Assembly (NCBI RefSeq): GCF_964212655.1
Contig: NZ_OZ156465.1
Location: 4,278,001-4,342,000, forward strand
DNA from: Candidatus Thiodiazotropha sp. LNASS1
GTDB lineage: Bacteria > Pseudomonadota > Gammaproteobacteria > Chromatiales > Chromatiaceae
Direction of reading: 5' to 3'
DNA: 64,000 nt
The position numbers were made by a program, and so were the translations under genes. Within the stretch, counting starts at the first letter, position 1; the number at the start of each line of letters is the position of its first letter. Shown here in pieces: positions 1 to 27,824 of this stretch. The notes below the pieces were generated by a model, which worked only from the letters and a program-made list of their open reading frames with translations, made no database searches and was not told the origin of the DNA.

Positions 1-208
1 CGTAGCTGATCTCACGGAAGCAAGCACCCATGACTTGCGCTGCCGCGGCATATTCAGAATCCAGGGCCGACAAGGCCTGTTCCAGCTGGCCAAAGATGTC
101 CTCTTCCAGAAAGGCTTCCTCCGGCTCGTAATAGCAGGCACTGAGCATACGGCAGGCGTCCGCTTTGGCTTGATGTCGGCGCTGTACGTCGTTTTGAAGG
201 TTTTCCAT
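1..208 (-). CDS. TorD/DmsD-like molybdoenzyme chaperone, N-terminal part
   Basis: Cut by the left edge; only the first 69 codons are visible. The product starts MENLQNDVQRRHQAKADACR and continues with an acidic helical stretch of the kind seen in TorD/DmsD-type cytoplasmic chaperones, which bind the Tat signal of a molybdoenzyme and support cofactor loading. The ATG at 206-208 has an AAGGG ribosome site just upstream. It is the last visible gene of the minus-strand operon, 67 bp after the ferredoxin subunit, and the catalytic subunit of that operon carries a Tat signal, so it is probably its dedicated chaperone. The family call rests on a short N-terminus plus context. Confidence 0.6.
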   Translation of the reverse strand, partial: MENLQNDVQRRHQAKADACRMLSACYYEPEEAFLEEDIFGQLEQALSALDSEYAAAAQVMGACFREISY

Positions 209-275
209 GGAAATCCCTTTAAAGCAAAGGGCTGGGGCCAACGACCCCAGCACCAATTCATCGTGCGTGCGATCC

Positions 276-1052
276 TCAAACGGTCGGATCGTTGTAACTT
301 CGGATATAGAAGACGTTGGGTTCGGTTCCTTCCTCTTCCTTTAGCCGAGTCGTTTTCTGAGCGGCGAGGATCTTGGCGATCGCGCTATTGGGATCATTTT
401 GATCACCGAAGATCCGGGCGTCTGCCGGGCACGCCTCAACACATGACGGTAGTTCACCGACGCTTGTTCTGTGATAACAGAACGTACACTTCTCGATGAT
501 ACCCATGTTGCGCACCGGCGGATAATCGCCTGAATTGAACCTGTTCTCGCTGGGCGGCGTCGCACCGGCCGTCTTGGCTACTTCGGCTCCCGATGCCGTG
601 CATCCGGCGATGGCCGGGCTCTCATCGAGCCACTCCGGATGGACCGGAAAATCGAACTGATTGAAACTGATGACGCTGTAGGTTCCGCCGTCGAGACTGG
701 AATCGTCCAGCTCCTGAGAACTATAGGGGCAGGCGTCCAGGCAGGCCCCGCAGCCAATGCACCTTTCCTGGTTGAAGAGCGTCGTACCGTCGGGCGCCTT
801 GAACATGGCTTTGGGCTCGGTGGGACATTCTTCGATACAGGGAGGATTGCTGCAATGATTGCACAGCACTGGCATTTGCACATAGGTAGTGTTAGGAAAC
901 TCGCCCTCTGTCTTCATGACGAAGTCGGCCCAGTTGAAACTCTGATTGTGGGCCCGAGCCTGGGTGTTGTTTTCTGCCTTGCAGGCCAACGCACAACTGC
1001 CGCAACCTGTGCATTGGTGCAGATCGATTACCATTCCATATTTGACTGACAT
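276..1052 (-). CDS. Four-cluster ferredoxin subunit of molybdopterin oxidoreductase (ArrB/PsrB/TtrB type)
   Basis: 258 aa electron-transfer subunit expected to carry four [4Fe-4S] clusters between the catalytic subunit and the membrane/cytochrome partners. Visible cysteine groups: CTGCGSCALAC near residue 15, CNHCSNPPCIEEC near 92, CIGCGACLDAC near 125, and a split CTFC...CVEAC group in the last third. A long insertion between the third and fourth groups and the ending FYIRSYNDPTV are typical of ArrB-like subunits. ATG at 1050-1052 has a GGGGATAAG ribosome site. It lies 33 bp after the catalytic gene, so co-translation is likely. No signal peptide is seen; co-export with the Tat-bearing catalytic subunit is the usual arrangement. 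Confidence 0.88.
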   Translation of the reverse strand: MSVKYGMVIDLHQCTGCGSCALACKAENNTQARAHNQSFNWADFVMKTEGEFPNTTYVQMPVLCNHCSNPPCIEECPTEPKAMFKAPDGTTLFNQERCIGCGACLDACPYSSQELDDSSLDGGTYSVISFNQFDFPVHPEWLDESPAIAGCTASGAEVAKTAGATPPSENRFNSGDYPPVRNMGIIEKCTFCYHRTSVGELPSCVEACPADARIFGDQNDPNSAIAKILAAQKTTRLKEEEGTEPNVFYIRSYNDPTV

Positions 1053-1085
1053 GATCTTATCCCCGTTAATTAATTCGGTCGATGG

Positions 1086-3644
1086 CTAGAGCTTCTGGAT
1101 CTTGACGCGCGACACGGCATGACGGGCGGTCGAGCCGCTGAGGCGGTCGTAATCGGCCGGCAGCAGTTCGTTGTTGTTGAACCCGCGCGGGACATGTTTG
1201 CCGTAGTCCGCGCTGGCCAACCGGCCGTAGGCCCAGTGGCCCATGCCGAAGGTCTTGTTGACCGTGCCCGGGCGAACGCCTTCCCAGAGTTTGACTTGAA
1301 TTTTCACACTCTTTTCTGGCGATGTTACCGTTACCCAGTCTCCGTCTGTCAGCTTCAGTTTCTGGGCATCCTTGGGATTGATCTTGAGGACATCTGTGTG
1401 ACTGATATCGCCCGGATCGACCTTCTTGAATTCATAGAATTCGTTTAAGTTCTGTGACCGACCCTCGCGGCTCAACCGGCTACGGCTGTCCATGAAGACG
1501 AAAGGAAATTCGTTCTCGTCGCCATGGTATTTAGCCGGTTCCCAATGCGGTACAAAGACCTGCTCGCCGCGACCCGCGTATTGGGTGACTTCCATGACCT
1601 TGTCGATGCTGACCTCGTATTTCTCGGCGTGCATGCCGAGCACCTTCTTCAAAGTCTCGCTGTAGAACTCGAACTTATGGGTCTCTGTTTTGAAGCCCTT
1701 CTCCCACTTTTTCTTGAAAGGATACTGGTCGGACTGCCACAGACCGAGTTTCACGAATTCCTGCCATCCGTTGATCTTCTCGCCACTATGGTATTTGGTG
1801 GGATTCCATTGCTTCTCGGTCATGACCTTGACGACGATTTCGGCGAACTGCGCCTCGTTTTCAGCTGCCTTGCCGGTTTCAGGATCCTTCAATTCGGTTT
1901 GGAAGTAGTCGAACAGGTTCGGGAAGCCTTTTTCCTTCAGCTTCTTGGCCAGCATCCAGACCACTTCGGTCTCGTCGATGCGGGTGTCCCACAGTGGCTT
2001 GACCAAAGGTTGCTGCAGGCCTATGTAACTGTAGCGGTTGTACTTGCTCGGCACCAGGCCCCAGCGTTCGAACATATGGAACGATGCCGGCAGCACAATA
2101 TCGGCAAACTGGCTCATCTCCGAGGGATTGGTCACGATGTGCGCGAAGAAGGGAACTTTCTCCAACGCCTTTTCCCAACGGGTCGCACCGGTGCACGAGA
2201 AGGTGAAATTGTTCCAATAACCGATGGCCACTTTGATTTCGTAAGGATCTTCGTCGAGGATCCCGTCGGCCGCCCGGTTGGTGACCACGCCGCCGCCCGG
2301 TTTTTTCTTGAGTGAGGGGAATTCAAGGGTGCCACGCTGGTCGATCTTCTTGTGTTTCACTCCTTTTTGGGCGATTTCGTCCAGGTACGGCTTGAATTTC
2401 TCCTTGTAAAGCGGAATATGGGTATAGGGCGCCTTCATCTTCTGCAGTGTGCCACCCTTGTTGTCGGCGCCGCCGACCAGGCCGTTGAGGGCATGGGCCG
2501 CAAGGGCGCCATAGGCGCCGCGTGGCTGCATGGCGGCACCCGGCGCCATCCATACCATGACGTTGGGTGCTGCTTTTCCGAAACCGATCGCCACGCGCCG
2601 GATCTGTTCCGCCGGCACCAGACAAATCTTTTCCGCCCATTCGGGAGTCCGGTCCTTAAGCTCGAGGTTCCACCACTTGACAACGCCATGGGTGAGTTTT
2701 TCGTCGAACGCCGTCTCGTCCACCATTGCGCCGGTCTTGAAGGCGTTGACACCGTCCTTGAAGTCACCGACGAACTCCCGGCTCCATAGCCCTTCAGTCA
2801 GAATGACATGTGCAAGTGCGAGGGCAAGCGCACTGTCTTCCCCCGGTTTGACCGGCATCCATTCGTGGGCCTTGGATGCGGTCGCCGAAAGGCGTGGGTC
2901 CACCGCAACAACGGTCGCCTGATCGAGAACCTTGCCCCATTGGCGGATGGCGTTGGGTACCTGGCGGTTGGAGGCGATGGGATCGCCGCCGAAGCAGATC
3001 ACGTATTTGCTGTTCTCCAGGTCGTAATCGCGGTAGTCCCAATAACCTTCGGTGTAGTAGGAGCCGAATTTTTCCGCCTCGGCGCAGATGGCGCTGTGGG
3101 AGATATTGTTGGGAGAGCCGAAAATCCTGGGCAGCGCACCATAGATGACGTCGCGGCAATAGGTATAACGGCCGCGCATCAGCATAAATTTTTCCGTTTC
3201 GTTGTTTTTGCGCAATTCCATCATCTTGTCGGCGATAGTATCCAATGCCTCGTCCCATGAAACCGCCACGAACTTGGGATCGACGCCGCGCCCCTTCTTC
3301 GGATTGGTGCGCTTCATCGGCACCTTGATGCGGTCGGGATCGTACATCTGCCCGATAGCCAGATGCCCGCGTGGACAGACGTAGCCATTACTGCTCTTGG
3401 AAAGATGATGGCCGCGGACCTTGACCACCCGGCCTTCCTGAACGAAGGCCTCGGCAGCGCACCAGGAGGTACAGCCCTGGCAGACGGTCGGCACCCATTT
3501 GCCTTTGCCGGGAGAGGCGGGCTTGGGTGCGGGGCCATCGGCCGGCGGATCTTCAGCCATTGCCTCGCGCACCATGGCGGAGGTCGCGATAAGGCCACCA
3601 GTAGCGACAGAACTCTTGATAAAATCTCTACGATTAAGTTTCAT
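1086..3644 (-). CDS. Tat-exported molybdopterin oxidoreductase catalytic subunit (ArrA/SrrA/PsrA-like)
   Basis: 852 aa DMSO-reductase-superfamily catalytic subunit, expected to hold Mo-bisMGD and one [4Fe-4S] cluster and to reduce (or oxidise) an oxyanion or sulfur compound in the periplasm. The N-terminus has a Tat signal (NRRDFIKSS). The cluster motif is C55-x2-C58-x3-C62-x27-C90. A GSPNNISHSAICAEAEKFG block places Cys187 as likely Mo ligand, as in the arsenate/polysulfide/thiosulfate reductase branch rather than the Ser-ligated DMSO reductases. Overall flavour resembles respiratory arsenate reductase ArrA, but selenate, tetrathionate, polysulfide or another substrate cannot be excluded from sequence alone. 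It lies 108 bp after the cytochrome b gene and is followed by the ferredoxin subunit and chaperone. Confidence 0.85.
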   Translation of the reverse strand: MKLNRRDFIKSSVATGGLIATSAMVREAMAEDPPADGPAPKPASPGKGKWVPTVCQGCTSWCAAEAFVQEGRVVKVRGHHLSKSSNGYVCPRGHLAIGQMYDPDRIKVPMKRTNPKKGRGVDPKFVAVSWDEALDTIADKMMELRKNNETEKFMLMRGRYTYCRDVIYGALPRIFGSPNNISHSAICAEAEKFGSYYTEGYWDYRDYDLENSKYVICFGGDPIASNRQVPNAIRQWGKVLDQATVVAVDPRLSATASKAHEWMPVKPGEDSALALALAHVILTEGLWSREFVGDFKDGVNAFKTGAMVDETAFDEKLTHGVVKWWNLELKDRTPEWAEKICLVPAEQIRRVAIGFGKAAPNVMVWMAPGAAMQPRGAYGALAAHALNGLVGGADNKGGTLQKMKAPYTHIPLYKEKFKPYLDEIAQKGVKHKKIDQRGTLEFPSLKKKPGGGVVTNRAADGILDEDPYEIKVAIGYWNNFTFSCTGATRWEKALEKVPFFAHIVTNPSEMSQFADIVLPASFHMFERWGLVPSKYNRYSYIGLQQPLVKPLWDTRIDETEVVWMLAKKLKEKGFPNLFDYFQTELKDPETGKAAENEAQFAEIVVKVMTEKQWNPTKYHSGEKINGWQEFVKLGLWQSDQYPFKKKWEKGFKTETHKFEFYSETLKKVLGMHAEKYEVSIDKVMEVTQYAGRGEQVFVPHWEPAKYHGDENEFPFVFMDSRSRLSREGRSQNLNEFYEFKKVDPGDISHTDVLKINPKDAQKLKLTDGDWVTVTSPEKSVKIQVKLWEGVRPGTVNKTFGMGHWAYGRLASADYGKHVPRGFNNNELLPADYDRLSGSTARHAVSRVKIQKL

Positions 3645-3752
3645 GCTCCTCCTCCTATTTGGTCTTTTCAGGAAAATCCTGAGTAGTGTTCAATGTTCAA
3701 GAATCGATGACATGGTGGAAAACCAATTGTCGGTTCTCCACGAGCCGGATAA

Positions 3753-4382
3753 TCAAGTTCTTAATTGTTCTTCGTTTTCGTTTTCGTCTTCGACTTCTTC
3801 CCAACCGGTAATCATCGCTTTGATATGGGCGGTCGGGGTATGTCCGGCGGTAGCCAGGTAGACATGGACGATCAGGAAGATCAACATCAGGTAGGCAGCA
3901 CTGGCATGCGCCACGGCTACCCACTCCAGTGGCAGATTGGCCAGTCCGTACTCAGGCCAGACATCGTAGAACAGGTAGAGCCAGCCGCTGAACCATATGG
4001 TCGGTCCAATCACCAGCAACACGAACAGGTAGGCGAGGCGCTGCAGCGGATTATGCTTGTACCGCGTGGTCTGCCGGAACGGGTGCGGGGCATTGGTGAA
4101 GATGCCGACTGCGTAGTACTTGATCATGGCATCGGCCTTCTCCAGGGTAGGCATGTACTGCTTCCACTCCCCTGTGGTGAAGTGCCAGAAGATAGCGAAG
4201 ATCCAGAGGCCGACCAGGGTCCAGGCAGCGATAGTGTGGTAGCCGACCACCTGCTCGAAGCCGAACAGGGAGTAGATACCGTGCACCTCGAAGCCGGTGA
4301 CCAGCAGGGTAATGATCAGCGCCGCCTGGGACCAGTGCCAGAAACGCTCGAAACGTTTGAACACGTAGATTTTCTTTGGCAT
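3753..4382 (-). CDS. Cytochrome b (formate dehydrogenase gamma/b561 type) of the respiratory operon
   Basis: 209 aa with about four membrane segments and conserved-looking histidines (RFWHWSQAALI near residue 15, GYHTIAAWT near 46, IVHVYLATAGHT near 175), as in diheme cytochrome b subunits of formate dehydrogenases, hydrogenases and thiosulfate reductases. It probably exchanges electrons with the quinone pool and passes them to periplasmic partners. The start MPKKIYVFKRF is chosen because GAAGGG lies 8 nt upstream; the longer frame overlaps the preceding gene. Only 4 bp separate it from the stop of the nine-heme cytochrome gene, so the two are surely co-transcribed. The C-terminus is strongly acidic. 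Confidence 0.85.
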   Translation of the reverse strand: MPKKIYVFKRFERFWHWSQAALIITLLVTGFEVHGIYSLFGFEQVVGYHTIAAWTLVGLWIFAIFWHFTTGEWKQYMPTLEKADAMIKYYAVGIFTNAPHPFRQTTRYKHNPLQRLAYLFVLLVIGPTIWFSGWLYLFYDVWPEYGLANLPLEWVAVAHASAAYLMLIFLIVHVYLATAGHTPTAHIKAMITGWEEVEDENENEEQLRT

Positions 4383-4386
4383 GACT

Positions 4387-6003
4387 TTATCCCTTCTTTT
4401 GGCTTGAGATAACGCGAATCGCGCCGTGCAAGAGCACGCCAATCAGCGCCAGCAATGCCATGGTCAAGAACAGTTTATCGAGTATGGGCAGGCTGCCAAT
4501 GCCCGGCATATAAAGACCTTCAACATCTTTCATGCGGCCATCCCTGCTGTGACAGGACACGCAGGCGAGAGCATCCTCGGCTGGCGCGACCATGTGATTG
4601 ACGGGGATGCGCATTTCGGTTTCGACAAAGCCGACCTGACCGCTGAACTCCCTGCCTGCCACCTTCATTGCGGCATCGATGGATGCCGGCCAGTCAAAGG
4701 TCTTCCAGTAGCCATCGTTCTTCTTTCCGAACAAGCTCGCCGGCACGAGGGTCGCCTTTTCCTCATCGATGGGTTGTTTCCCACGCAAGGTCTTGACCGG
4801 CCATATGCGGGCTTTGGGATCATCAGGACCACCCGCGAGAGTGTTGAGCTGCACGACCCCGGAGGGATCGATGCTGTCATCCATGGTTGTGAATTCGATC
4901 TGGCCACTGAACCAGACGTATTCCGGCACCAGGTTTTCGGCCCACTGAGCGCTTCCCCGTTGTGATGAGTACGTGATGCGTCCCTCGCCATCCTTTTCGA
5001 CGATCGCCTTGCCCTTTTCATTGAGACGACCGGCCGTCGACCAATCCCAATAGGTTTTTGTCGGCAGGCCGCCACGCGCCAGAGCGGGGATATGGCATGT
5101 CTGGCAGGCGATCCGGTCTACGTGATTGTTTAGCTTGGGGTTGGCGCTTTCCGGGTGGGGCGTCAGGCCGTGGCAGGATTCGCAGGTGGCGCGGCTGCCA
5201 CCAACGACGTCTATACCGTGTTCATCCTTGCTCGCAGGCTCATACTGGCTCCCCATCATCTGGTGCCATTCGGTTTTGTGGCATGTGGTGCAGCTATAAC
5301 CGAGCCCGTCTTGCGCCATGTGCACGTCGAGGTGGCGGGGGGCTGTCGCCAGCGATGAATCGAGGTCGCCCTGTTTGATGCCATCACCCCCGTCACTGTA
5401 GAAATGACACCCACCACAGGATTGCACGGTTGGCTTGCCGACCTGTTTCGCCAGTTCGGATAAGTTCGGTTTGCGGACCACCTCGCGCGCCTTGGACTTG
5501 TCCCATTCCACATGGCAGGCCGGGCACTTGACACGCAGCTGATGCATTTTGTTGGACGCATAGGTCCCGGTGGTGTCATGACAGGCGAGGCAATCGACCT
5601 GTTCTTCGGCCGTGAAGTCGAAACCTTCGTCTTTCCATTCGTTGCTGATATGACAGCGGGCGCAATAGGGTCCGTTCGACGAGGTCGCAAACATCGTGCT
5701 GTTCAGGACGTTCCTTTTGCCGACCAACTGTCCCGTCTTGCCGTTCGGAATTTCCCAATTCCAGTGACTGGACGTATGCACCTGCTTGGCAGCCAGGTTA
5801 TGGCAACTGAGGCACGCCTTCGTCAGCTCCATGCCGGACTTAAATCTCTGCTGCAAGACCTCGAAGCTGGAATGATCGGCGGTCGACTGTTGCAAGGGCG
5901 TTGGCGTGACCGTTTCCGGCTTTATTTCAAAAGCCCCGTGGGAGCTGTTGATAGTCAAACCTATAAAAAAAAGCGATGCCAAGCGCCCTAGTTTCCCGAT
6001 CAT
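4387..6003 (-). CDS. Membrane-anchored nine-heme cytochrome c, octaheme tetrathionate reductase (OTR) family
   Basis: 538 aa with an N-terminal signal peptide (about residues 1-23) and nine CxxCH heme motifs: CLSCH, CARCH, CLACH, CPACH, CGGCH, CTTCH, CESCH, CQTCH and CVSCH. Blocks such as CHNLAAKQVH, CLACHDTTGTY and the CGGCHF...GDLDSSL...LDVHM stretch are characteristic of the OTR family, periplasmic enzymes able to reduce tetrathionate, nitrite or hydroxylamine. Two features differ from the soluble octaheme enzyme: a ninth heme motif near residue 483 and a C-terminal transmembrane helix (about 505-525). Start at the ATG at 6001-6003, preceding the signal peptide. First gene of the operon; it may be an electron conduit between the cytochrome b and the molybdoenzyme, or a reductase itself. 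Confidence 0.87.
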   Translation of the reverse strand: MIGKLGRLASLFFIGLTINSSHGAFEIKPETVTPTPLQQSTADHSSFEVLQQRFKSGMELTKACLSCHNLAAKQVHTSSHWNWEIPNGKTGQLVGKRNVLNSTMFATSSNGPYCARCHISNEWKDEGFDFTAEEQVDCLACHDTTGTYASNKMHQLRVKCPACHVEWDKSKAREVVRKPNLSELAKQVGKPTVQSCGGCHFYSDGGDGIKQGDLDSSLATAPRHLDVHMAQDGLGYSCTTCHKTEWHQMMGSQYEPASKDEHGIDVVGGSRATCESCHGLTPHPESANPKLNNHVDRIACQTCHIPALARGGLPTKTYWDWSTAGRLNEKGKAIVEKDGEGRITYSSQRGSAQWAENLVPEYVWFSGQIEFTTMDDSIDPSGVVQLNTLAGGPDDPKARIWPVKTLRGKQPIDEEKATLVPASLFGKKNDGYWKTFDWPASIDAAMKVAGREFSGQVGFVETEMRIPVNHMVAPAEDALACVSCHSRDGRMKDVEGLYMPGIGSLPILDKLFLTMALLALIGVLLHGAIRVISSQKKG

Positions 6004-15377: not shown

Positions 15378-16292
15378 CTACTCATCCCCCCACACCAGTT
15401 CTCCCGCTTCGCGTAGGTCATAACCGGACAGCTGTTTTGCCATGGCCTTGCATTCGGTTGAACGCAGACGCGCTATGAGATCCTGAAACAGGCGCCGAAA
15501 CCAGATACTGCGGGGTAGTGTCAGATCGAAGGACTCCCAGCCGAATGGGATGAATGCCAATCCATATTCATTGGCTGCCGCGCGTGCCCCCGGGGCTACG
15601 TCCGCCTGGCCCATGGCGATATTGGCGGCGGCCTCACGTTCCGAAAGGGCGGTGGCGACACAATTCAGCTTTTCCGTGCTGGTGCCATAACCGCTGAGTA
15701 CTTCCATCAGAAAACGCTGAGCGCCGGCGCCGCTTTGACGCATGGTCCAACGGAACTCGCGGTCGAAGAGATTCTCCGGCTGCAGTTTCCGTTGTTCGAT
15801 CCGGCGGCTGACCATCAGTCCCTGTTCGCGGCGAAACAGGCGTATCAGCACCCACTGGCGAAATTGCGGGTATTGGCGCAGCAGTGCCGGGTGGCGCGTA
15901 TGGCTCTCCTGATTCGGCCCCCAATGGATACCACAGGCGTCGATACGATTGGCCTGCAGCAGTTCCAGGCCCAGCCGGGTGCCGGTGGGGGAGTAACTGA
16001 TCAGGGCATGGGAGCCGGTCTCATCGGCAAAGGTCATGATCAACCGATAGAGCAGGGGATCGTCGCTGCCGGCGATCACCAGCCTGTTGGTCATCAATCC
16101 ACCGTGGGCGGAGTCGAGCATCCAACGATCGACCAGCTCTCTCGGAAACAACCACTTGCCGGTTATCTTGGTGGCGGGGATGCGCTCTTCGTTGACCAGG
16201 GCATAGATCTTCTTCTCATTCAGATGAAGATATTCCGCAACCTGTTTGACGTTCATAAAGATATGTTGATCCTGGGACATCACCGCTACCAT
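15378..16292 (-). CDS. Helix-turn-helix regulator with periplasmic-binding-protein-like domain, linked to formate dehydrogenase
   Basis: 304 aa. Residues 12-60 (FMNVKQVAEYLHLNEKKIYA, then ITGKWLFPRELVDRW) are an excisionase/MerR-like winged helix; residues 68-300 (NRLVIAGSDDPLLYRLIMTF, then ARAAANEYGLAFIPFGWESF) form a type-2 substrate-binding fold, as in regulators sensing molybdate or small anions. Such proteins often neighbour formate dehydrogenase genes and could respond to molybdate, tungstate or formate. Start at 16292 because GGGGGGAAGCT lies directly upstream. It follows fdhD by 12 bp, in the moaA-fdhD-regulator operon, and may act at the AAATGTCCC inverted repeat before the divergent operon; that link is inference. 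Confidence 0.78.
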   Translation of the reverse strand: MVAVMSQDQHIFMNVKQVAEYLHLNEKKIYALVNEERIPATKITGKWLFPRELVDRWMLDSAHGGLMTNRLVIAGSDDPLLYRLIMTFADETGSHALISYSPTGTRLGLELLQANRIDACGIHWGPNQESHTRHPALLRQYPQFRQWVLIRLFRREQGLMVSRRIEQRKLQPENLFDREFRWTMRQSGAGAQRFLMEVLSGYGTSTEKLNCVATALSEREAAANIAMGQADVAPGARAAANEYGLAFIPFGWESFDLTLPRSIWFRRLFQDLIARLRSTECKAMAKQLSGYDLREAGELVWGDE

Positions 16293-16304
16293 AGCTTCCC
16301 CCCG

Positions 16305-17189
16305 TTATCGGCTTTTGCTCTGACCGGCCTGTCGTACCCCGGACTTTTGCGGGCGGACCTCCGGCACGGCATCGAAACTGACCTGTTCCGCCCCGTTGTA
16401 GACCAGGAAGTGTTTGCCCTTGGCGCGGGCGATCAGGGTGACGCCGACCTTTCTAGCCAATTCCAATCCCATTTGCGTGATACCTGAGCGGGAGAGCAGG
16501 ACCGGTATCCCCATCTGTGCAACCTTGATCACCATCTCGGAGGTGAGCCTGCCGGTGGTATAGAAGATCTTGTCGTTGCCATCGGTTTCTTCGAGCCACA
16601 TATGGCCGGCGATGGCGTCGACGGCGTTATGCCGCCCCACATCTTCGATGAAGAGATGAATCCGCTCTTCACTGCACAGGGCACAGCCGTGTACCGCTCC
16701 AGCCCGTTGATAGACCTGGTTGTACTCGTTGAGTGTCTGCAACAGTCTGTATATCTCGGATTGACGAATACTCCTCCGGGGCAGTTCGATCTTCTCCAGG
16801 TCATCCATCAGATCGCCAAACACTGTCCCCTGGCCGCAGCCGGTCGTCACTGTTTTACGCGCCATCTTCTCTTTCACGCCCTGTACGCCCTCATAGGTGG
16901 TGATGGCTGCGGAGTCGGTCTCCCAGTCGACCTGGATCGCTTTGATCTGTTCGATATCCAGGATCAGTTTTTGATTGCGCAGCCATCCCAGCACCAGCAT
17001 CTCGGGACGGGTGCCCAGGGTCATCAGGGTGACCAGTTCCTGTTTGTCCAGATAGAGTGTCAGGGCACGTTCCGCGGCAACATGGCCGTTTCTGATATCG
17101 CCATACTCATCGATCGCAACAGCCTCCACCGCGGCACTGAGTCCCGCATCAGTCATCAGGGGCCGTTTTGTATCAGAGAGGGTGTCCAT
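16305..17189 (-). CDS. fdhD: Formate dehydrogenase accessory sulfurtransferase FdhD
   Basis: 294 aa. FdhD moves sulfur from a cysteine desulfurase to the Mo-bisMGD cofactor, making the sulfido ligand needed for formate dehydrogenase activity. Family blocks: LVTLMTLGTRPEMLVLGWLR, RAGAVHGCALCSEE with the functional cysteine pair (about C169 and C172), FIEDVGRHNAVDAIAGHMWL, and FYTTGRLTSEMVIKVAQMGI. The ATG at 17189 has GGTGG upstream; a GTG at 17198 is an alternative. Immediately follows moaA and precedes the regulator, divergent from the formate dehydrogenase operon it serves. Confidence 0.95.
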   Translation of the reverse strand: MDTLSDTKRPLMTDAGLSAAVEAVAIDEYGDIRNGHVAAERALTLYLDKQELVTLMTLGTRPEMLVLGWLRNQKLILDIEQIKAIQVDWETDSAAITTYEGVQGVKEKMARKTVTTGCGQGTVFGDLMDDLEKIELPRRSIRQSEIYRLLQTLNEYNQVYQRAGAVHGCALCSEERIHLFIEDVGRHNAVDAIAGHMWLEETDGNDKIFYTTGRLTSEMVIKVAQMGIPVLLSRSGITQMGLELARKVGVTLIARAKGKHFLVYNGAEQVSFDAVPEVRPQKSGVRQAGQSKSR

Positions 17190-17198
17190 GGGTTCCAC

Positions 17199-18257
17199 CT
17201 AACCACCGGTTACATTCATATGGCGGAACAGCACCGGTTTGGCCGTAAGATCGAACTCGTGGCCCTTGGGCTTGATCTCCATGGCATCGATGATCGCCTG
17301 GCGCAACGGCTCATCGTCCAGTGGATTGGCGCGCACCACCCGGCGCAAGTCCATGGAGTGTTCCTGACCGAGACATAGCAGCAGGCGCCCTTCGGCGGTG
17401 AGACGCACCCGGTTGCAGTGATCACAGAAGTTGTGGCTGTGAGGCGAGATGAAGCCGACCCGGGTGTTGCTGTCGTTGATACGGTAGTAACGCGCCGGTC
17501 CGCCGGTCGTATCCGTGGTGGCTATCAGATCGTAGTGCGGTTGCAGATCCTGCAGTACCTGTTGGCTGGAGTAGTAGAGTTCCGCCCGGTCGTGATCACC
17601 GGTCTCTCCCAGAGGCATCTCCTCGATAAAGCTGATATCCATGCCGCGTTTTTCGGCGAATTCCACCAATGCGGGGATTTCGTCATGATTGCGGTTTTTC
17701 AGGATCACCGAGTTGATCTTCACCCGCTGAAAACCTGCCTCGAGGGCGGCATCGATTCCGGCGAGGGTACGGCGAATGTCACCGATCCTGGTTATTTTCC
17801 TGAAACGCGCTTCCTGCAGTGAATCGAGGCTGATATTGACCCGCGTCACGCCTGCACGCTGCAATGTCTTTGCGTAGCGATTAAGCAGGGTGCCGTTGGT
17901 GGTCAGTGTGAGATCGTCCAGTCCATCCAGCTGGCCGAGGGACTCAAACAGCTGCATGACACCGCGTCTGGTCAGGGGCTCACCGCCGGTGATGCGGATT
18001 TTTCTCACCCCCATCTCTACGAAGGATTTGCCGACCCGAAACAGTTCTTCCAGGGTCAACAGCTGAGAACGGGGTACGAACGTCATATCTTCCGACATGC
18101 AGTAGACGCAGCGCAGGTCGCAACGGTCGGTGACAGAGATCCGCAGATAGTTGATGCGGCGATTAAAGCGGTCGACCAGGGATGATTGGGTCTGATGTTC
18201 GGGGCTCTCTCTGTTCACGCGCGGTCTCTCGGGTTGGATCTCCTGTCTGATGAGCAA
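17199..18257 (-). CDS. moaA: GTP 3',8-cyclase MoaA
   Basis: 352 aa radical-SAM enzyme for the first step of molybdenum cofactor synthesis. N-terminal cluster C46-x3-C50-x2-C53 (TDRCDLRCVYC) binds the SAM [4Fe-4S]; the C-terminal cluster is in HNFCDHCNRVRLTAEGRLLLC. KIRITGGEPLTRRGV is the SAM-binding GGE motif. The protein ends in Gly-Gly (NVTGG), as required for MoaA function. The frame opens with TTG at 18257 (later starts possible up to residue 14). First gene of the moaA-fdhD-regulator operon; a local copy next to a molybdoenzyme suggests a supply role. Confidence 0.95.
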   Translation of the reverse strand: MLIRQEIQPERPRVNRESPEHQTQSSLVDRFNRRINYLRISVTDRCDLRCVYCMSEDMTFVPRSQLLTLEELFRVGKSFVEMGVRKIRITGGEPLTRRGVMQLFESLGQLDGLDDLTLTTNGTLLNRYAKTLQRAGVTRVNISLDSLQEARFRKITRIGDIRRTLAGIDAALEAGFQRVKINSVILKNRNHDEIPALVEFAEKRGMDISFIEEMPLGETGDHDRAELYYSSQQVLQDLQPHYDLIATTDTTGGPARYYRINDSNTRVGFISPHSHNFCDHCNRVRLTAEGRLLLCLGQEHSMDLRRVVRANPLDDEPLRQAIIDAMEIKPKGHEFDLTAKPVLFRHMNVTGG

Positions 18258-18688
18258 TTACCGTACCCGATGAAACCGATCACCAGCGTGTAAAGACCGG
18301 GAATAGTTCAGGTTTCACTCAACGGTTACCGCTCAAGGATCGGCATATTGACGCTAATCCCTTGTCTGGTGGGGGCTGGCGGCAAGTGGCGCTGTATCTG
18401 CGGTGGAATAACATGGGGGGATCAGCCCTTGCGCATCCGTCCCATGGCTGGGCAAGGCGTATAGGATTTCGCTCCCGTTACACCCATCGTGATGCCACGG
18501 TGGTGTAGCAATATGGTAAGAAATGTCCCACCTCAGTGATTCTAAACGGGACATTTTGCCCTGTTTTTCCGCTGATCCGTTTTACCGATTTTTTTCCCAA
18601 TGCGACTCTCTTCTGATTTTACTGCCCTGATGATCGTTTGGTATGCAACTTGCGATGCATGAATTGGATAAGCACCGGGTATCAAACC
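18258..18688. other. Divergent promoter region moaA / formate dehydrogenase operon
   Basis: About 430 bp with no convincing gene. It should hold both promoters. The clearest element is the inverted repeat at 18521-18556; further short inverted motifs (GCCCTTGCGCATCC, CACCATCGTGATGCCACGGTGGTG around 18482-18505) suggest regulator binding or RNA structure. Confidence 0.5.
18521..18556. promoter_or_regulatory. Inverted-repeat operator candidate for the formate operon
   Basis: AAATGTCCC (18521-18529) and GGGACATTT (18548-18556) are perfect 9-bp inverted repeats with an 18 bp spacer, roughly 130 bp before the first gene of the formate dehydrogenase operon. The size and position fit a dimeric activator site; the protein is unknown. 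Confidence 0.5.
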
Positions 18689-19219
18689 ATGACGGCAACG
18701 AATAGCGACCATACAAGGGACCATAACCCTTCAAAATTCAATGTTTCTGTGATCATCCAGCAGTCACCCAGTGATTCCCGATGGCTGGAAGACCGTTGGG
18801 AGGCCGTTGGCGTTGTAGCCGCCCTGGAAGAGGAGAGGGTCGATAGGGCCGGGCCGAGCCTGATCCACCAGGAGGGGCCGGTCAGTCACTATCTCTATCC
18901 GGGATTCACCCTGCGCCTGCATGAGGATGAGTGTGAAAGCTACTACTACAATCTGCTCTCATCGCAACCCCACTGTTACGTGGTGGCGAATTTGGACGAC
19001 CAGGGCAAGCCGAACCCCTTTCTCGTCAGTCTTAGTTATGACGAGGCCCATGCCTATCTCGAGGGCGACGATACCGTCTACACCGTACCGGTACCGGCCG
19101 AGTTGTATCGTTGGACAGAGGCCTTTGTGCTGGACCACTACGCGCCGCAGAAAAGGACCAAGCGCAAGCGTGCCGACTGGAAATCTGCAGCCCGCGGGCC
19201 CGGCGATCATGAAGCCTGA
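18689..19219 (+). CDS. DUF3305 family protein (formate dehydrogenase operon)
   Basis: 176 aa, matching DUF3305 proteins that regularly precede formate dehydrogenase genes. Visible pattern: VSVIIQQSPSDSRWLEDRWE, then SHYLYPGFTLRLHEDECESY and LSYDEAHAYLEGDDTVYTVP, ending in a basic tail (RTKRKRADWKSA). No signal or cofactor motif. Probably cytoplasmic, assisting assembly or regulation. Start at the ATG at 18689 is chosen to place the conserved block about 20 residues in; ATGs at 18659 and 18638 are possible. Its end overlaps the next gene by 11 bp. Confidence 0.75.
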   Translation: MTATNSDHTRDHNPSKFNVSVIIQQSPSDSRWLEDRWEAVGVVAALEEERVDRAGPSLIHQEGPVSHYLYPGFTLRLHEDECESYYYNLLSSQPHCYVVANLDDQGKPNPFLVSLSYDEAHAYLEGDDTVYTVPVPAELYRWTEAFVLDHYAPQKRTKRKRADWKSAARGPGDHEA

Positions 19220-19718
19220 GGATTCCCCGGAAACAGCCGTTCAGACAGACGCCGGCTTCTATCGTCGCTGGTCTGAAAAAAAACAGGCATCCCGGCAGCC
19301 CCTGGCGGAACAGGACGAAACGGTCGAAGAGCAACAACAGCCAGGCGACGAGGATATGCCTTCGTTGGAGAGCCTGGATGAAAACTCCGACTACAGCGGT
19401 TTCCTCTCCCCCCGGGTATCCGATCAGCTGCGCCAAGTCGCATTGCGGAAGCTCTTTCACAGTGCGGCATTCAATGTCTGCGACGGCTTGGATGATTACG
19501 CAGAGGATTTCACGAGTTTTGAAAAACTCGGGGATCTGATGACAGCGGATCTGCGTCACCGGCTTGAGCAGGAAGCACTCAGGCAGCAGCAACAAGTGGA
19601 TGAGTTGGCCAAGCGCGATGCACGGGAGAGTGACGCATCAGACGATGAGGCGAGTGATGAGCCGGCGACAGCGCAGACCGGGCAAAACGAAGATCCAACC
19701 GACGAGGCAAAAACATGA
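19209..19718 (+). CDS. DUF3306 family protein (formate dehydrogenase operon)
   Basis: 169 aa. FYRRWSEKKQASR near the start and SDQLRQVALRKLFHSAAFNV with CDGLDDYAEDFTSFEKLGDL in the middle are the DUF3306 signature, a family found only beside formate dehydrogenase operons. The rest is acidic, glutamine- and glutamate-rich, probably disordered or coiled coil (EQEALRQQQQVDELAKRDAR). Role unknown; overlap by 11 bp with the previous gene and by 4 bp (ATGA) with the next implies tight co-translation. Confidence 0.78.
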   Translation: MKPEDSPETAVQTDAGFYRRWSEKKQASRQPLAEQDETVEEQQQPGDEDMPSLESLDENSDYSGFLSPRVSDQLRQVALRKLFHSAAFNVCDGLDDYAEDFTSFEKLGDLMTADLRHRLEQEALRQQQQVDELAKRDARESDASDDEASDEPATAQTGQNEDPTDEAKT

Positions 19719-21343
19719 GTGAATCGAACACCACGGCCGTGTCAATGGTCAACCGCCGGGCGCGGGATCTGGCGTTGCAGGCGATGCGGGAAATCGGCGT
19801 GGAGGCGACCAGTCTGGTCAACTATCAGTCCCGCGGCCGGGTGGCGGTGATCGGGGATCAGACGGCGCTGGAGATCGCGCCGCGGCTGAACGATAAGCTC
19901 AGTCCGATCGTGGTCTTGACCCGGGGTGTGGAAGAACCGGGCGCTCCGGTTGTCCCCGTGGGTGGACGTGACCTTCGGATAGAGGGGTATCTCGGGGCTT
20001 TCAAGATACATCTCGGCGAAGCCGGCCGCGCCAATGCGGAGATCCTTGCGGTGGATCTGATCCTGGATCTCTCGCACACGCCTTTGATGGATCGGGTGAT
20101 GAATCCTCCCGGTTACTACCACTCAAGTATCGAGGAGGATCAGCTCTCGCCGGTACTCGATGAAATGGCTCAGATGACCGGTAATTTCGAGAAACCCCGC
20201 TATTTCGACTACGATCCGGCGATCTGTGCCCATGGCCGTTCGGGTAAGCATGCCTGCACCCGTTGCATCGATGCCTGTCCCGCCGATGCGATCACCAGCC
20301 TGGCCGAGACTGTCGAAGTGAACAGCTATCTCTGCCAGGGAGGCGGTGCCTGCGCCAGTGTCTGCCCCAGTGGGGCGATGCGCTATCTCTATCCATCGGT
20401 CAGAGACACTTTGCAACGGCTGCGTAAATTGTTGCATACCTATCTTGAGCAAGGAGGGTGTTCTCCGGTGGTGGTGTTTCATGCCGCTTCGGATCAACCG
20501 TTGCCGAACGATATGCCCGCCCACTATCTGCCGGTAGTGGTGGAGGAGTTGGCCAGCACCGGCATGGATGTCTGGTTGACGGTTCTGGCTTATGGCGCCA
20601 GGCAAGTGTTGTTGGCGGATGACGGCGGCATGCCGTCGGCCGTGAAGAGTGCGATGCAGGAACAGTTCGCCATCGCGGAGGAGATCCTGCGTGCGATGGG
20701 GTATCCCCAAACATCGATCCGGCTGATTGCACATGCTGAATTGCTGCGGGATAGCGGTGAGGGTATGCCTGAGATCCCGCTGGCGGGATTTTCCGGGATC
20801 GGCAGCAAGCGGCAATCGATCTTTCTTGCCATCGACCACCTTTACGACCAGGCCGAGCGGCCCAAACCGATGGCCAGCCTTCCCGCGGGCGCTCCCTTTG
20901 GGACCGTCTATGTGGAGGAAAAGGCCTGTACCCTCTGCCTCTCCTGTGTCGGCGCCTGTCCAGGCAAGGCGTTGCAGAGTGGCAGCGAGGGTATGCCTCA
21001 GCTTCGTTTCATCGAGGCCAATTGTCTGCAGTGCGGACTCTGTACCCGCACCTGTCCCGAGGACGCAATCTGGATCACGCCGCGGTTGCTGTTCGAAGCA
21101 GAGAGTCGTAACCAGACCCGTACCCTGCGGGAAGAGGAGCCCTTTCTCTGTACCGCCTGCGGTAAACCCTTCGCAACCCGCTCGGTGATCGAAAAGATGC
21201 GAAGCAGACTTAAAGATCATTATATGTTTCAGAGCGAAAGGGCGCTCAAGCGGCTTACCCTGTGCGATAGCTGCCGGGTGGTGGATATTGTGCAGGACGC
21301 GGAGGCCATGGGCGGGGATCTGGATGGACGGTTGCAACAGTAG
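19715..21343 (+). CDS. Multi-cluster 4Fe-4S protein of the formate dehydrogenase operon
   Basis: 542 aa cytoplasmic polyferredoxin. Cysteine groups: CAHGRSGKHACTRCIDACP (about residue 170), CQGGGACASVCP (about 208), CTLCLSCVGACP and CLQCGLCTRTCP (about 408 and 440), plus a late CTAC / CDSC group that could bind zinc or another cluster. The region between the cluster pairs resembles an HdrA/FrhD-like electron-transfer scaffold. Such proteins accompany DUF3305/DUF3306 and periplasmic formate dehydrogenase; they may deliver electrons for maturation or link formate oxidation to a cytoplasmic pool. Start overlaps the previous stop (ATGA). Confidence 0.82.
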   Translation: MSESNTTAVSMVNRRARDLALQAMREIGVEATSLVNYQSRGRVAVIGDQTALEIAPRLNDKLSPIVVLTRGVEEPGAPVVPVGGRDLRIEGYLGAFKIHLGEAGRANAEILAVDLILDLSHTPLMDRVMNPPGYYHSSIEEDQLSPVLDEMAQMTGNFEKPRYFDYDPAICAHGRSGKHACTRCIDACPADAITSLAETVEVNSYLCQGGGACASVCPSGAMRYLYPSVRDTLQRLRKLLHTYLEQGGCSPVVVFHAASDQPLPNDMPAHYLPVVVEELASTGMDVWLTVLAYGARQVLLADDGGMPSAVKSAMQEQFAIAEEILRAMGYPQTSIRLIAHAELLRDSGEGMPEIPLAGFSGIGSKRQSIFLAIDHLYDQAERPKPMASLPAGAPFGTVYVEEKACTLCLSCVGACPGKALQSGSEGMPQLRFIEANCLQCGLCTRTCPEDAIWITPRLLFEAESRNQTRTLREEEPFLCTACGKPFATRSVIEKMRSRLKDHYMFQSERALKRLTLCDSCRVVDIVQDAEAMGGDLDGRLQQ

Positions 21344-21492
21344 AGCCCCATTTTGACCAACCATTGAGAGATGCCGATTCTGCGATTGGATCCGGGGGGA
21401 GTGAGGACTTGGTCGATTTCAGTCCAATTTGTCATTTCTTTCCCATGAGAGCTGGTCCGGTGCTTGCAAACAGTATTTTGGAGGAGAGTGTG

Positions 21493-22161
21493 ATGACCGA
21501 AATGAGCCAAGCCGTCCAAACTGACAATGAGTGCGCGGAAAACCCGTTGCCCGGTTCGGTGACTGACACCGCACCTGCTGTCGATCTGGATCGGGAACAG
21601 CACTATCGAATCGGCGCCTACGGCATGTTGGCTCAACTGTTGCGGCAATCCCCGGATCAACTAATGCTCGAAAAGGTCACCGGTTTTGCGACCGTGGAAC
21701 CAAGCAGGGACGAGTTGGCGTTGGCGATGTCCATGTTGGGTCTATCCGCATCGGATTCGCGGCCGCAAGCGGTGGAGCTGGAGTTTCACGATCTGTTCAT
21801 CGGCATGGGTCGCGGTGAGTTGGTGCCCTATGGCTCCTGGTATCTTACGGGGTTCCTGATGGAGAAACCCCTGGGCAGGCTGCGGGACGATCTGGCGATG
21901 TTGGGATTTCAACGCCAGGACGGTGTCACTGAACCGGAGGATCATGTTGCCGCACTGTGCGAAGTGATGGCAATGATGATCGGCGAAGGCGTCGGTTTCC
22001 GTCAGCAATCACACTTCTTCGAATCACATATGGCTGGTTGGCTGGAGCATTTTTTCGCTGATTTGAGTGAGGCGAAAGCTGCTGTCTTCTATCGTGCGGT
22101 GGGGCGCTTCGGCGCCGCATTCGCAGCGATGGAGAAACGTTACCTGAGTATGCCCGTGTAG
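21493..22161 (+). CDS. TorD/DmsD family chaperone for formate dehydrogenase
   Basis: 222 aa, all-helical TorD fold: RIGAYGMLAQLLRQSPDQLM near residue 37, the conserved EFHDLFIGMGRGELVPYGSW near 97 (the usual ExxxLFxG...PYxS motif) and a helical end (FFADLSEAKAAVFYRAVGRF). It should bind the Tat signal of FdhA and protect it until cofactor insertion. Strong GGAGGAGAG ribosome site before the ATG at 21493. About 150 bp after the polyferredoxin gene and 68 bp before the small Tat protein. Confidence 0.88.
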   Translation: MTEMSQAVQTDNECAENPLPGSVTDTAPAVDLDREQHYRIGAYGMLAQLLRQSPDQLMLEKVTGFATVEPSRDELALAMSMLGLSASDSRPQAVELEFHDLFIGMGRGELVPYGSWYLTGFLMEKPLGRLRDDLAMLGFQRQDGVTEPEDHVAALCEVMAMMIGEGVGFRQQSHFFESHMAGWLEHFFADLSEAKAAVFYRAVGRFGAAFAAMEKRYLSMPV

Positions 22162-22229
22162 CGCTCTATGTATGTAGCCTGACCGATTGTCACATGACTG
22201 AACTGTGAATCCGAGTGGAGGATGATTTC

Positions 22230-22442
22230 ATGAAAAAACAGCTTAAGCAGAAACCGGATCCGAAACGCAGGGCGTTTCTGCGCGGCACTGCGAGTGCCGG
22301 TGTCGGCGTCGCCGTCGCGGCCAGCCTGCCCGGTCTGACAACGGCCTCCACGGATGAAGCTTCAAGCGAGTCGGCCAAGACAAAGAAAGGCTACCGCCTG
22401 ACACCCCATATCGCGGCCTATTACAAGTCCACCGTGAGTTGA
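22230..22442 (+). CDS. Small Tat-signal protein of the formate dehydrogenase operon
   Basis: 70 aa. Begins MKKQLKQKPDPKRRAFLRGT followed by a hydrophobic alanine/valine stretch, a full twin-arginine signal, leaving only about 35 residues after cleavage (KKGYRLTPHIAAYYKSTVS at the end). Small Tat-signal proteins of this type occur immediately before fdhA in many proteobacteria; they may be a subunit of, or assembly factor for, the exported complex. GGAGG ribosome site 8 nt upstream; 19 bp before fdhA. Confidence 0.82.
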   Translation: MKKQLKQKPDPKRRAFLRGTASAGVGVAVAASLPGLTTASTDEASSESAKTKKGYRLTPHIAAYYKSTVS

Positions 22443-22461
22443 GTTTTTCGAGGATACCTGA

Positions 22462-25356: not shown

Positions 25357-25382
25357 CCGGGTTTTAAACAGAGGACACTAAC

Positions 25383-26012
25383 ATGGCACGAATGAAATTT
25401 TATTGTGATCCGGAACGTTGCATCGAGTGCAATGCATGCGTAACCGCCTGTAAGAACGAGAACGAGGTTCCATGGGGCGTGAACCGCCGCAGGGTGGTGA
25501 CCATCAATGACGGCGACGAGGGTGAACGCTCCCTCTCGGTGGCCTGTATGCACTGTTCGGATGCGCCTTGCGCCACAGTCTGTCCGGTGGACTGTTTCTA
25601 TACCACCCAGGACGGCGTTGTACTGCATGACAAGGATATCTGTATCGGTTGCGGTTACTGTTTCTATGCCTGCCCCTTCGGCGCACCGCAGTTTCCCGAG
25701 GATGGCGCCTTCGCCACGCGAGGCAAGATGGATAAATGTACCTTCTGCGCCGGCGGGCCGGAGGCCGACAACAGCTCCGAAGAGCATCGCAAGTACGGAT
25801 CCAACCGACTGGCCGAAGGCAAGCTGCCGCTGTGTGCGGAGATGTGCTCTACCAAGGCGTTGCTGGCGGGGGATTCGGATACCATCTCCGAGATCTATCG
25901 CAAACGCATCATCAATCGCAGCGCGAGTGTGATGGCGCGGGGTGTCTCCTATCGCGATGCCTCGTTCCGCGCACCTTACAGTGCCGCCGGCAAGAGCAGT
26001 GCTAAAGAGTGA
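25383..26012 (+). CDS. fdhB: Formate dehydrogenase iron-sulfur subunit
   Basis: 209 aa four-cluster ferredoxin subunit: CIECNACVTAC (residue 14 onward), CMHCSDAPCATVC, CIGCGYCFYACPFG, and the split CTFC...CAEMC group. It carries electrons from FdhA to the cytochrome b subunit. It has no membrane helix, unlike the E. coli FdnH, so the FdhABC complex is probably held by FdhC alone. Lies 26 bp after fdhA and 29 bp before fdhC. Confidence 0.94.
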   Translation: MARMKFYCDPERCIECNACVTACKNENEVPWGVNRRRVVTINDGDEGERSLSVACMHCSDAPCATVCPVDCFYTTQDGVVLHDKDICIGCGYCFYACPFGAPQFPEDGAFATRGKMDKCTFCAGGPEADNSSEEHRKYGSNRLAEGKLPLCAEMCSTKALLAGDSDTISEIYRKRIINRSASVMARGVSYRDASFRAPYSAAGKSSAKE

Positions 26013-26041
26013 TTGCGGGCTAAAGGGAGAGCTGACGTTCC

Positions 26042-27130
26042 ATGTACAGGGTAAGCAACCTTTCTCAGGCCGGCCTTGGCCTCAAAACAGGGGTTTTCCT
26101 GTGGCTGCTGTGGTTGCTTCTCCTGCCGTTGGAAACTGTCGCTGATACCAAGCAGCCGAAAGGCATGCCATCGACGATGGTGCTTAATCCTGCCGCGGAA
26201 TTGTGGCGGGATGTGCGTCAGCGGGATATGCCCATATCAGGCACCACCCAGGTGAAGGGAGTGGATTCGGGTGTGCTGATCAATGCCAATGGCGATAAGT
26301 GGCGTAAATTCCGCATGCAGCAGTTGATTCCCATCGGCGGTTACCTGCTGCTGGGTATCCTTGTCGGCCTGGCGGTTTTCTACATGCTACGCGGCAAGGT
26401 GAAAATCGTCGGCGGGGCATCGGACAGGAAGCTGCCCCGTTACACCAGCTATGAGCGATTGATCCACTGGTTCATGGCATCGATTTTCCTGTTTCTCGCC
26501 ATCACCGGCCTGATCATTCTATTCGGCCGCCCGCTGTTGATACCCATCTTCGGCAAGGAGATCTTTTCCATCATTGCATCGGCCAGTAAGGAGGGTCACA
26601 ACCTGATGGGCCCGCTGTTTATGGTTGCGCTGATCCTGGTGTTTGTAAAATTCGTCCGGCGCAATATCTACCAGAAGGGGGATATGAGTTGGCTGTTACG
26701 AGGTGGAGGCATCATCGGTAAGAAGCATGTTCCGTCCAACTTCTTCAACATGGGCGAGAAGAGCATGTTCTGGATGCTGGTGCTGGTGGGCTCGGTGATC
26801 GTCATCTCCGGGCTGGTATTGATATTTCCCGTTTTCGGTCAGAGTCGGGAGTGGATGGAGCTGGCCCATGTGGGCCACGCCATCGGCGCGATACTCATGA
26901 TCGGTGTGATCCTCGGCCACATCTATATCGGCAGCATCGGCATGGAGGGCGCCATCGACGGTATGACGACCGGTTACTGCGATCTTAACTGGGCCAAGGA
27001 GCATCACGATCTGTGGGCGACACAGATGGAAAAACGGGGTGAAGCGATAGCGAATGAAGAAGTGAATCGATTCAGTGATCCCGATACGAACGAATACCTT
27101 GGCAGAGAGTTACGGGAGGCCGACAAGTGA
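26042..27130 (+). CDS. fdhC: Formate dehydrogenase cytochrome b subunit (gamma)
   Basis: 362 aa. A signal peptide-like N-terminus and about 70 residues of periplasmic sequence precede four transmembrane segments with heme histidines (YERLIHWFMASIFLFLAITG, EGHNLMGPLFM, HVGHAIGAILMIGVILGHIY). This is the long form of the FdoI/FdnI-type subunit found in FdhABC complexes. It passes electrons to quinone. The stop overlaps the start of the NarI-like gene by 4 bp. Confidence 0.93.
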   Translation: MYRVSNLSQAGLGLKTGVFLWLLWLLLLPLETVADTKQPKGMPSTMVLNPAAELWRDVRQRDMPISGTTQVKGVDSGVLINANGDKWRKFRMQQLIPIGGYLLLGILVGLAVFYMLRGKVKIVGGASDRKLPRYTSYERLIHWFMASIFLFLAITGLIILFGRPLLIPIFGKEIFSIIASASKEGHNLMGPLFMVALILVFVKFVRRNIYQKGDMSWLLRGGGIIGKKHVPSNFFNMGEKSMFWMLVLVGSVIVISGLVLIFPVFGQSREWMELAHVGHAIGAILMIGVILGHIYIGSIGMEGAIDGMTTGYCDLNWAKEHHDLWATQMEKRGEAIANEEVNRFSDPDTNEYLGRELREADK

Positions 27131-27768: not shown

Positions 27769-27769
27769 C

Positions 27770-27824
27770 CCGCATTACTCACGCCCTAGGATCCTCCCGC
27801 TACGATCGGGTGTGAGTAATGCGG
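27770..27824 (+). terminator. Long inverted repeat between the NarI-like and HdrD-like genes
   Basis: CCGCATTACTCAC (27770-27782) and GTGAGTAATGCGG (27812-27824) are perfect 13-bp inverted repeats around a 29 bp loop. It could end most transcripts, tune expression of the following gene, or be an inserted repeat; there is no T-run. Confidence 0.45.

Follow-up and report, generated by a model that had tools for sequence, protein, structure and literature searches.

An ArrAB-type operon with a nine-heme OTR-family cytochrome and a cytochrome b in Candidatus Thiodiazotropha: a possible ubiquinone-linked arsenic oxidoreductase

The operon and its distribution

The stretch of DNA analysed here (the window, 64,000 nucleotides, G000:C1:4278001-4342000) comes from the 4.75 Mb, single-contig genome of Candidatus Thiodiazotropha sp. 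LNASS1 and holds, at its start, an operon that joins a multiheme cytochrome of the OTR family to a molybdoenzyme of the ArrAB type. The genes lie on the minus strand (Table 1) and are read in the order OTR-family cytochrome, cytochrome b, ArrA-like catalytic subunit, ArrB-like subunit and TorD chaperone, followed by a 4Fe-4S protein encoded outside the window. An earlier note, made from the letters of the window, had described the first five as one respiratory operon, and the open reading frame (ORF) calls and family searches bear this out, with all five genes at or near the positions it gave. No sigma-70-like or terminator-like match was seen in the gap between the cytochrome b gene and arrA. 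A terminator-like hairpin (231-251, minus strand; nine pairs, seven of them G-C) lies between arrB and torD; terminator-like matches in the region do not exceed chance (6 found, 8.5 expected).

Table 1. Features of the operon, in window coordinates unless a locus is named
Feature	Coordinates	Strand	Remarks
OTR-family cytochrome c, nine CXXCH	4387..6003	-	538 amino acids (aa); signal-peptide-like N-terminus; TIGR04315 539 bits against a cut-off of 375; PDB 1sp3 E 2e-92
Extra heme motif CPACH, fourth in order (ninth heme)	5512..5526	-	in 8/8 arr-linked OTRs; at this place in 0/18 unlinked OTRs
Lys210 codon	5374..5376	-	aligns with Lys153 of the 1sp3 chain; Lys in 26/26
C-terminal membrane helix of OTR	4405..4491	-	hydrophobic helix read from the sequence
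Cytochrome b (PF01292)	3753..4382	-	209 aa; OTR stop 4 bp upstream; family searches used 3753-4388, longer by two codons
Gap, cytochrome b to arrA	3645..3752	-	108 bp; 98-113 bp in six other members measured
ArrA-type molybdopterin catalytic subunit	1086..3644	-	852 aa; Tat motif NRRDF; N-terminal 4Fe-4S motif
Cys187 codon	3084..3086	-	aligns with the Cys that we take to be the ArrA Mo ligand
ArrB-type four-[4Fe-4S] subunit	276..1052	-	258 aa; NF041715 244 bits; Pfam Fer4 families
torD-family chaperone, cut by the window edge	1..208	-	PF02613; whole (215 aa) at L098:13561-14208
Sixth gene, 4Fe-4S ORF just beyond the window	L098:12605-13690		361 aa as listed, GTG start; overlaps the torD end

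The same gene order, which the earlier note had suggested seeking in other genomes, was found. In a scan of one genome per species (84,980 species), the best 80 of 537 relatives were taken, and an OTR and a cytochrome b gene precede arrA in six of these 80, which are exactly the six whose ArrA is at least 83% identical. The other 74 showed neither gene within 7 kb of arrA, several of these loci being cut by contig ends. Adding the window and a draft genome of the same species (G096) gives eight operons from seven species, all with the same order; second copies (L009, L010 and L016, of L099, L020 and L021) were left uncounted. The carriers beyond the window species are a Ctena symbiont (L018), a member of the Arenicellales (L019), Gammaproteobacteria HKST-UBA182 (L020), a member of the Magnetococcales (L021), an alphaproteobacterium (L022) and a metagenome-assembled genome (MAG) of the Hyphomicrobiales (L074). 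TorD follows arrAB in all eight. The 4Fe-4S protein likewise follows in each, in L019 as a 73-aa fragment match only and in L074 as far as the contig end. Judging from this conserved order and the steady gap between cytochrome b and arrA, the operon is real. No NrfD-type or CymA-type gene was seen beside these ArrABs, so that the junction of an OTR-family and a b-type cytochrome with an ArrAB-type enzyme lacking such a partner, which the earlier note had singled out, is conserved in 8/8 operons.

The operon looks acquired, since at 1e-100 no ArrA match was obtained in the four other genomes of the genus besides the same-species draft. Within the host's family, 8 of 146 genomes have a match at that threshold, four of them ArxA-like, and within the phylum 3 of 398 at 1e-150, the own genome included. 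No match to a plasmid copy of arrA was found at 1e-100. Transposase-like genes, identified by eye, flank the operon on both sides, and a BrnT-type toxin gene (PF04365, 7717-8007) occupies a stretch of lower GC content upstream of it.

Catalytic subunit and cytochrome module

Sequence comparison places the catalytic subunit inside the ArrA clade and apart from ArxA-like sequences. Against solved structures, phmmer finds ArrA (6cz7) at E 5e-297, the next match, to a protein named thiosulfate reductase, standing at 8e-50. The eight operon-linked ArrAs form a single clade nested among ArrAs, with support of 100 in a tree of 85 rows and 100/100 in one of 49; because the first contained an aberrant long branch (L133), the second was computed from 49 selected rows, without L133 and 35 others, and the partial or split ORFs L052, L058, L069 and L093 were omitted from the trees and from the residue comparison. 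The surrounding ArrA clade includes rows from Shewanella, Desulfosporosinus and Bacillus, and L023 stands closest to the eight, followed by L024-L026, all from MAGs whose titles name Deltaproteobacteria or Geopsychrobacter. A four-row outgroup has GRGWG, which we take to be the ArxA motif, where ArrAs have RGRY. By eye, a B-type gene follows the A gene in all four of these loci, a 4Fe-4S gene precedes it in L013 and L015, and an NrfD-like gene follows it in L012 and L015; from motif and neighbours, with no named reference ArxA compared, these four are most likely ArxA. Identity of the window protein with ArxA was rejected, as it carries RGRY and not GRGWG and falls outside the ArxA-like group in the tree, and identity with PhsA or TtrA was likewise rejected, on the tree and on NCBIfam scores of 287 and 78 bits against 1130 for ArrA. 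The earlier note had proposed placing this subunit among the molybdoenzymes and had presented the arrangement as possibly new: the clade turns out to be a known one, and in the literature searched, with subscription journals mostly outside it, no description of an arr operon with an OTR-type cytochrome and a cytochrome b was found.

The features of an ArrA are present, namely a Tat signal, an N-terminal 4Fe-4S motif, a counterpart of the presumed Cys ligand of molybdenum, and the residues that presumably form the pocket. R159, Y160, H183, C187, K192 and Y204, which align with what we take to be the substrate pocket of 6cz7, are identical in 8/8 operon-linked ArrAs; the 72 further Arr rows compared vary at none of these positions but K192, where 67 have K. 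A literature search on ArrA pocket residues returned none, and the roles given to them here are presumed ones.

The two cytochromes form a module with a history of its own. Of the 146 genomes in the host's family, 102 have an OTR match (1e-30), and in 18/18 loci sampled from that family, mostly from the top of the list, a cytochrome b gene lies directly downstream of the OTR gene; within this family OTR and cytochrome b are a standing pair, and the earlier note's view that OTR is usually encoded alone does not hold there. In arr-linked OTRs the extra heme motif sits between the third and fourth shared hemes, while 17 of the 18 unlinked OTRs have eight heme motifs and the remaining one (L139) has eleven, with three extra at the N-terminus. 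The counterpart of Lys210 in 1sp3, Lys153, is presumably the unusual ligand of the catalytic heme. His16, 49, 159 and 173 of the cytochrome b are kept in 26/26, so that it probably carries two b hemes. The nearest NCBIfam match of this cytochrome b is PhsC, at 112 bits (cut-off 204 missed).

In the OTR tree all arr-linked sequences group together (100/100), and their clade is one of the long branches flagged there as meeting. The cytochromes b of the same operons fall into two groups in the best tree and do not form one group in 200/200 bootstrap trees, a split that the starred branches alone do not force. Identity along the two proteins follows the same division. The window OTR shares 67-85% identity with that of L019 over residues 40-485, 55% over 485-505 and 30% in the membrane helix (505-538), and the two cytochromes b share 53-69%; when the standalone pair L145 is compared instead, the corresponding figures are 39-55%, 40% and 57%, and 79-88% for the cytochrome b. 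L018 and L020 side with the window in this pattern, and in this lineage the OTR helix and the cytochrome b are closer to standalone OTR pairs than to L019, L021, L022 and L074. The break in identity at the membrane helix shows that helix and cytochrome b were exchanged together as a block, which argues that they work together. The nine-heme domain stayed with ArrAB while helix and cytochrome b were swapped. What is new is the combination: these ArrABs, unlike their closest relatives, come with an OTR-cytochrome b module, and its ninth heme occupies a constant position.

Other multiheme arrangements were seen. The own genome has a second OTR-cytochrome b pair (L133, G000:C1:882010-888077), beside five-heme, eight-heme and NapC-like four-heme cytochromes, the eight-heme one giving 66 bits to the hydrazine dehydrogenase family (cut-off 900), and similar cytochrome sets occur in several other sampled OTR loci. 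In L039, L047 and L062, cytochromes with 11, 11 and 12 hemes are encoded directly upstream of arrA, those of L039 and L047, the two searched, matching the NapC/NirT N-terminal family; beside OTR they make up another class of multiheme partner for ArrAB.

Substrate and direction of electron flow

The earlier note had held that the substrate is not readable, which goes too far: the ArrA clade and the presumed pocket residues point to arsenic, as do neighbouring genes of arsenic type in two relatives. In L020, a gene for an arsR-family regulator and one for an SBF-family transporter, which we read as ACR3, lie upstream of OTR. In L074, a phosphonate-binding-type sensor, a kinase and a sigma-54 regulator are divergent from OTR. 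This sensor scores 215 bits with AioX and 130 with ArrX, keeps the counterpart of Cys106, and has a hydrophobic loop AFL (VFL in the AioX alignment); its partner in a 46-row tree, from which 2 of 48 rows were omitted as too gappy, is the AioX encoded next to aioBA in the L074 genome (100/97), and other arr-locus sensors stand apart. An exact, correctly oriented sigma-54 site (TGGCAC-N5-TTGC) lies between sensor and OTR; a simulation allowing one mismatch gives about one match by chance in the L074 locus. According to PMC5908839, arsenite is the ligand of AioX and ArxX, and arsenate that of ArrX. The sensor evidence speaks for L074, and for the window it is an extension.

Quinone type gives a second line of evidence on direction. 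Markers for menaquinone (MqnA/D, PF02621; MenD, TIGR00173) and ubiquinone (UbiG, TIGR01983) were sought in 21 genomes, as marker genes in sets whose MAGs may be incomplete. Among the operon hosts MqnA/D and MenD are found in 0/8 and UbiG in 8/8, while the hosts of the nearest ArrABs (L023-L026) have MqnA/D in 4/4 and MenD and UbiG in 0/4; operon hosts thus seem, by these markers, to make only ubiquinone. An MqnC match of the own genome (306 bits, cut-off 428) was rejected as a menaquinone gene, the ORF being CofGH (1100 bits against 1018), and this bifunctional CofGH stands above its cut-off (L105:223-2622, G000:C1, about 4.187-4.189 Mb). CofGH catalyses a step of coenzyme F420 synthesis. PMC5908839 assigns menaquinone to Arr and ubiquinone to Arx, and PMC2500031 argues that ubiquinone offers little driving force for arsenate. 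Since Arx is bidirectional in vitro, according to PMC6620896, either direction is chemically open, and with hosts that carry the ubiquinone marker only, the enzyme possibly runs backwards as an arsenite oxidase.

We favour, with a probability of roughly 0.45 for the whole, an ArrAB-type arsenic oxidoreductase linked to ubiquinone through the nine-heme cytochrome and the cytochrome b and working in arsenite oxidation. A periplasmic ArrAB-type enzyme would act on arsenic, and electrons would follow a single path from arsenite through ArrA, ArrB, the nine-heme cytochrome and the cytochrome b to ubiquinone. The nine-heme cytochrome would be held at the membrane by its C-terminal helix and, with the diheme cytochrome b, would replace an NrfD-type ArrC or CymA. 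The usual direction would be arsenite oxidation, an Arr enzyme being used as Arx and Aio are. The wiring and the arsenic substrate, taken together, we consider probable; given both, the direction from arsenite to quinone is slightly favoured. Tentatively, the operon could represent a further way of oxidising arsenite, the third after Aio and Arx, in which a true ArrA became ubiquinone-linked by gaining the nine-heme OTR-type cytochrome and the cytochrome b, spread by gene transfer among Proteobacteria with ubiquinone only, and came under an AioX-type sensor in one host.

A number of observations weigh against arsenite oxidation, or against the assignment on which it builds. The clade and the RGRY motif are those of arsenate reductases. 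The NCBIfam models for ArrA (NF041714, 1130 bits, cut-off 1600) and ArrB (NF041715, 244 bits, cut-off 450) are missed, the ArrA cut-off being one that 8 of 9 Arr-clade proteins tested (2 from this group) fail and only a Shewanella protein passes. The Arr-clade enzyme that, according to PMC12142623, is upregulated on nitrate indicates that clade does not prove substrate. The quinone pattern follows phylum and is confounded with it, and two ArrA hosts without OTR (G083, with an NrfD-type operon, and G551) have UbiG and no menaquinone markers, so the OTR junction is not needed for ubiquinone. An AioX-like sensor adjoins the operon in one of eight loci only; in the window none lies near it, the matches of the own genome being elsewhere, and no sigma-54 site was found in the 600 bp before OTR (best 12/16), nor an exact match in the window. 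The genome of L074 has aioBA, and another arsenite oxidase may be superfluous there. An AioA search (E up to 1e-60) placed two hosts above the cut-off of 359 bits, G546 and G544 (372 bits), and gave no match in the other six operon hosts; an earlier, stricter AioB search had missed an aioB later seen in G546, and no positive control matched in it. The contrast in sensors is also weak, because the nearest ArrABs (L023-L025) are without a clear ArrX: the reading of their sensors as ArrX was dropped, as they are without the Cys106 counterpart and form their own group apart from ArrX and AioX, that of L025 scoring 79 bits with PtxB, 67 with ArrX and 40 with AioX.

Arsenate reduction is accordingly a close rival, and it is quite conceivable that the cytochrome b oxidises ubiquinol and passes electrons through the nine-heme cytochrome and ArrB to ArrA, which reduces arsenate to arsenite. 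The ArrA-clade placement and the motif that is not ArxA-like fit such respiration, as does the cytochrome b, whose nearest match PhsC we take to be a quinol-oxidising subunit; among the nearest ArrABs, which occur in menaquinone hosts, a sensor module is present, and L025 has an exact sigma-54 site before arrA (L024 a near-match), which fits regulated respiration. Against it stand hosts without a menaquinone marker, where ubiquinone would give arsenate little driving force, and the fact that the sole operon-linked sensor is AioX-like. The chain from quinol to oxyanion envisaged by the earlier note may hold, arsenite to quinone being at least as likely on quinone markers and sensor, and its suggestion that cytochrome and molybdoenzyme could both be reductases may be right, the OTR-cytochrome b pair being better read as an electron link. 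Two separate enzymes in one operon, with OTR-cytochrome b as a quinol-linked reductase of its own (for nitrite, tetrathionate, hydroxylamine or other) and ArrAB served by another partner, would suit the wide occurrence of standing OTR pairs in the family, the second pair in the own genome and the invariant Lys210, but would leave unexplained both a ninth heme found only in arr-linked OTRs and an order fixed in 8/8, and no NrfD-type gene was seen beside these ArrABs; we think this improbable. That the enzyme acts on something else (antimonate, selenate, a sulfur compound or nitrate), its ArrA ancestry notwithstanding, is more doubtful still, for although 47 positions are fixed in the eight and found in fewer than 10% of the 72 other Arr rows (Q801M among them), and PMC12142623 ties an Arr-clade enzyme to growth on nitrate, the presumed pocket residues are unchanged and the neighbours of L020 and L074 are of arsenic type.

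Several further loci touch on these subjects. The own genome has its AioX-like match at a distance of 0.4 Mb, next to a different molybdoenzyme. The cluster at G000:C1:3870123-3880087 (L171:6123-16087) has an 841-aa catalytic subunit (nearest PhsA, 339 bits, cut-off 694 missed), a ten-heme cytochrome with an NrfH-like start, a four-cluster FeS protein and a TorD-like gene; an AioX-like sensor, a kinase and a regulator are encoded divergently. The set recurs in G545 (L173), the contig of G543 ends inside the cytochrome gene, and in G096 the sensor alone was examined. This may be an undescribed arsenic- or oxyanion-responsive system. In the window, a GAPDH gene followed by an MFS transporter (35190-37411; Pfam shows only Gp_dh and MFS_1) has the layout that we take to be that of arsenate resistance by ArsJ. 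A formate dehydrogenase-like cluster (15378-29109) encodes a 964-aa Mo subunit (nearest TIGR01591, 470 bits, cut-off 666 missed) and 4Fe-4S proteins and, by eye, a cytochrome b, a chaperone and fdhD- and moaA-like genes. According to PMC5052931, no arsenate reductase gene was seen in Sedimenticola selenatireducens AK4OH1.

Relation to known systems

The system shows how one molybdoenzyme may be re-plugged from the menaquinone pool to the ubiquinone pool. Its electron module, extra heme and membrane part can be traced gene by gene, and the direction of Arr becomes testable in a defined lineage. The gene arrA serves as a marker of arsenate reduction, that is, of arsenic mobilisation; if this arrA clade does run in reverse, the marker misleads for such hosts.

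Known ArrAB (Shewanella, 6cz7) and ArrCAB share with the operon the catalytic and FeS subunits, the Tat signal, the presumed pocket residues, the placement in the tree and a TorD-type chaperone, which is present in most other Arr loci. They differ in that the operon puts a nine-heme OTR-type cytochrome and a cytochrome b before arrA, with no NrfD-type ArrC or CymA-like gene seen, and in that its hosts have the ubiquinone marker only. With Arx (arxB'ABC) the operon would share the ubiquinone link and the direction, if arsenite oxidation holds, and its 4Fe-4S protein has a weak relative in L015, an ORF picked out by eye as arxB'-like (24%, E 2e-13); unlike Arx, it has a catalytic subunit with RGRY rather than GRGWG that lies in ArrA, and a membrane partner that is not NrfD-like. 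OTR (1sp3) and the standalone OTR-cytochrome b pairs agree with it in family, eight of nine heme motifs and Lys210, and the standalone pairs also in the membrane helix and the adjoining cytochrome b, whereas the ninth heme and the linkage to arrAB are peculiar to the operon. PhsC of thiosulfate reductase and CbcBA/CbcL of Geobacter resemble it in using a PF01292-type cytochrome b as quinone site, and the Cbc systems also in joining that cytochrome b to a multiheme c cytochrome; in contrast to the operon, PhsC serves PhsAB directly and Cbc feeds metal reduction, and neither is known to be linked to ArrAB. We suggest that the operon be regarded as an ArrAB descendant whose electron module is new and whose direction may be new too.

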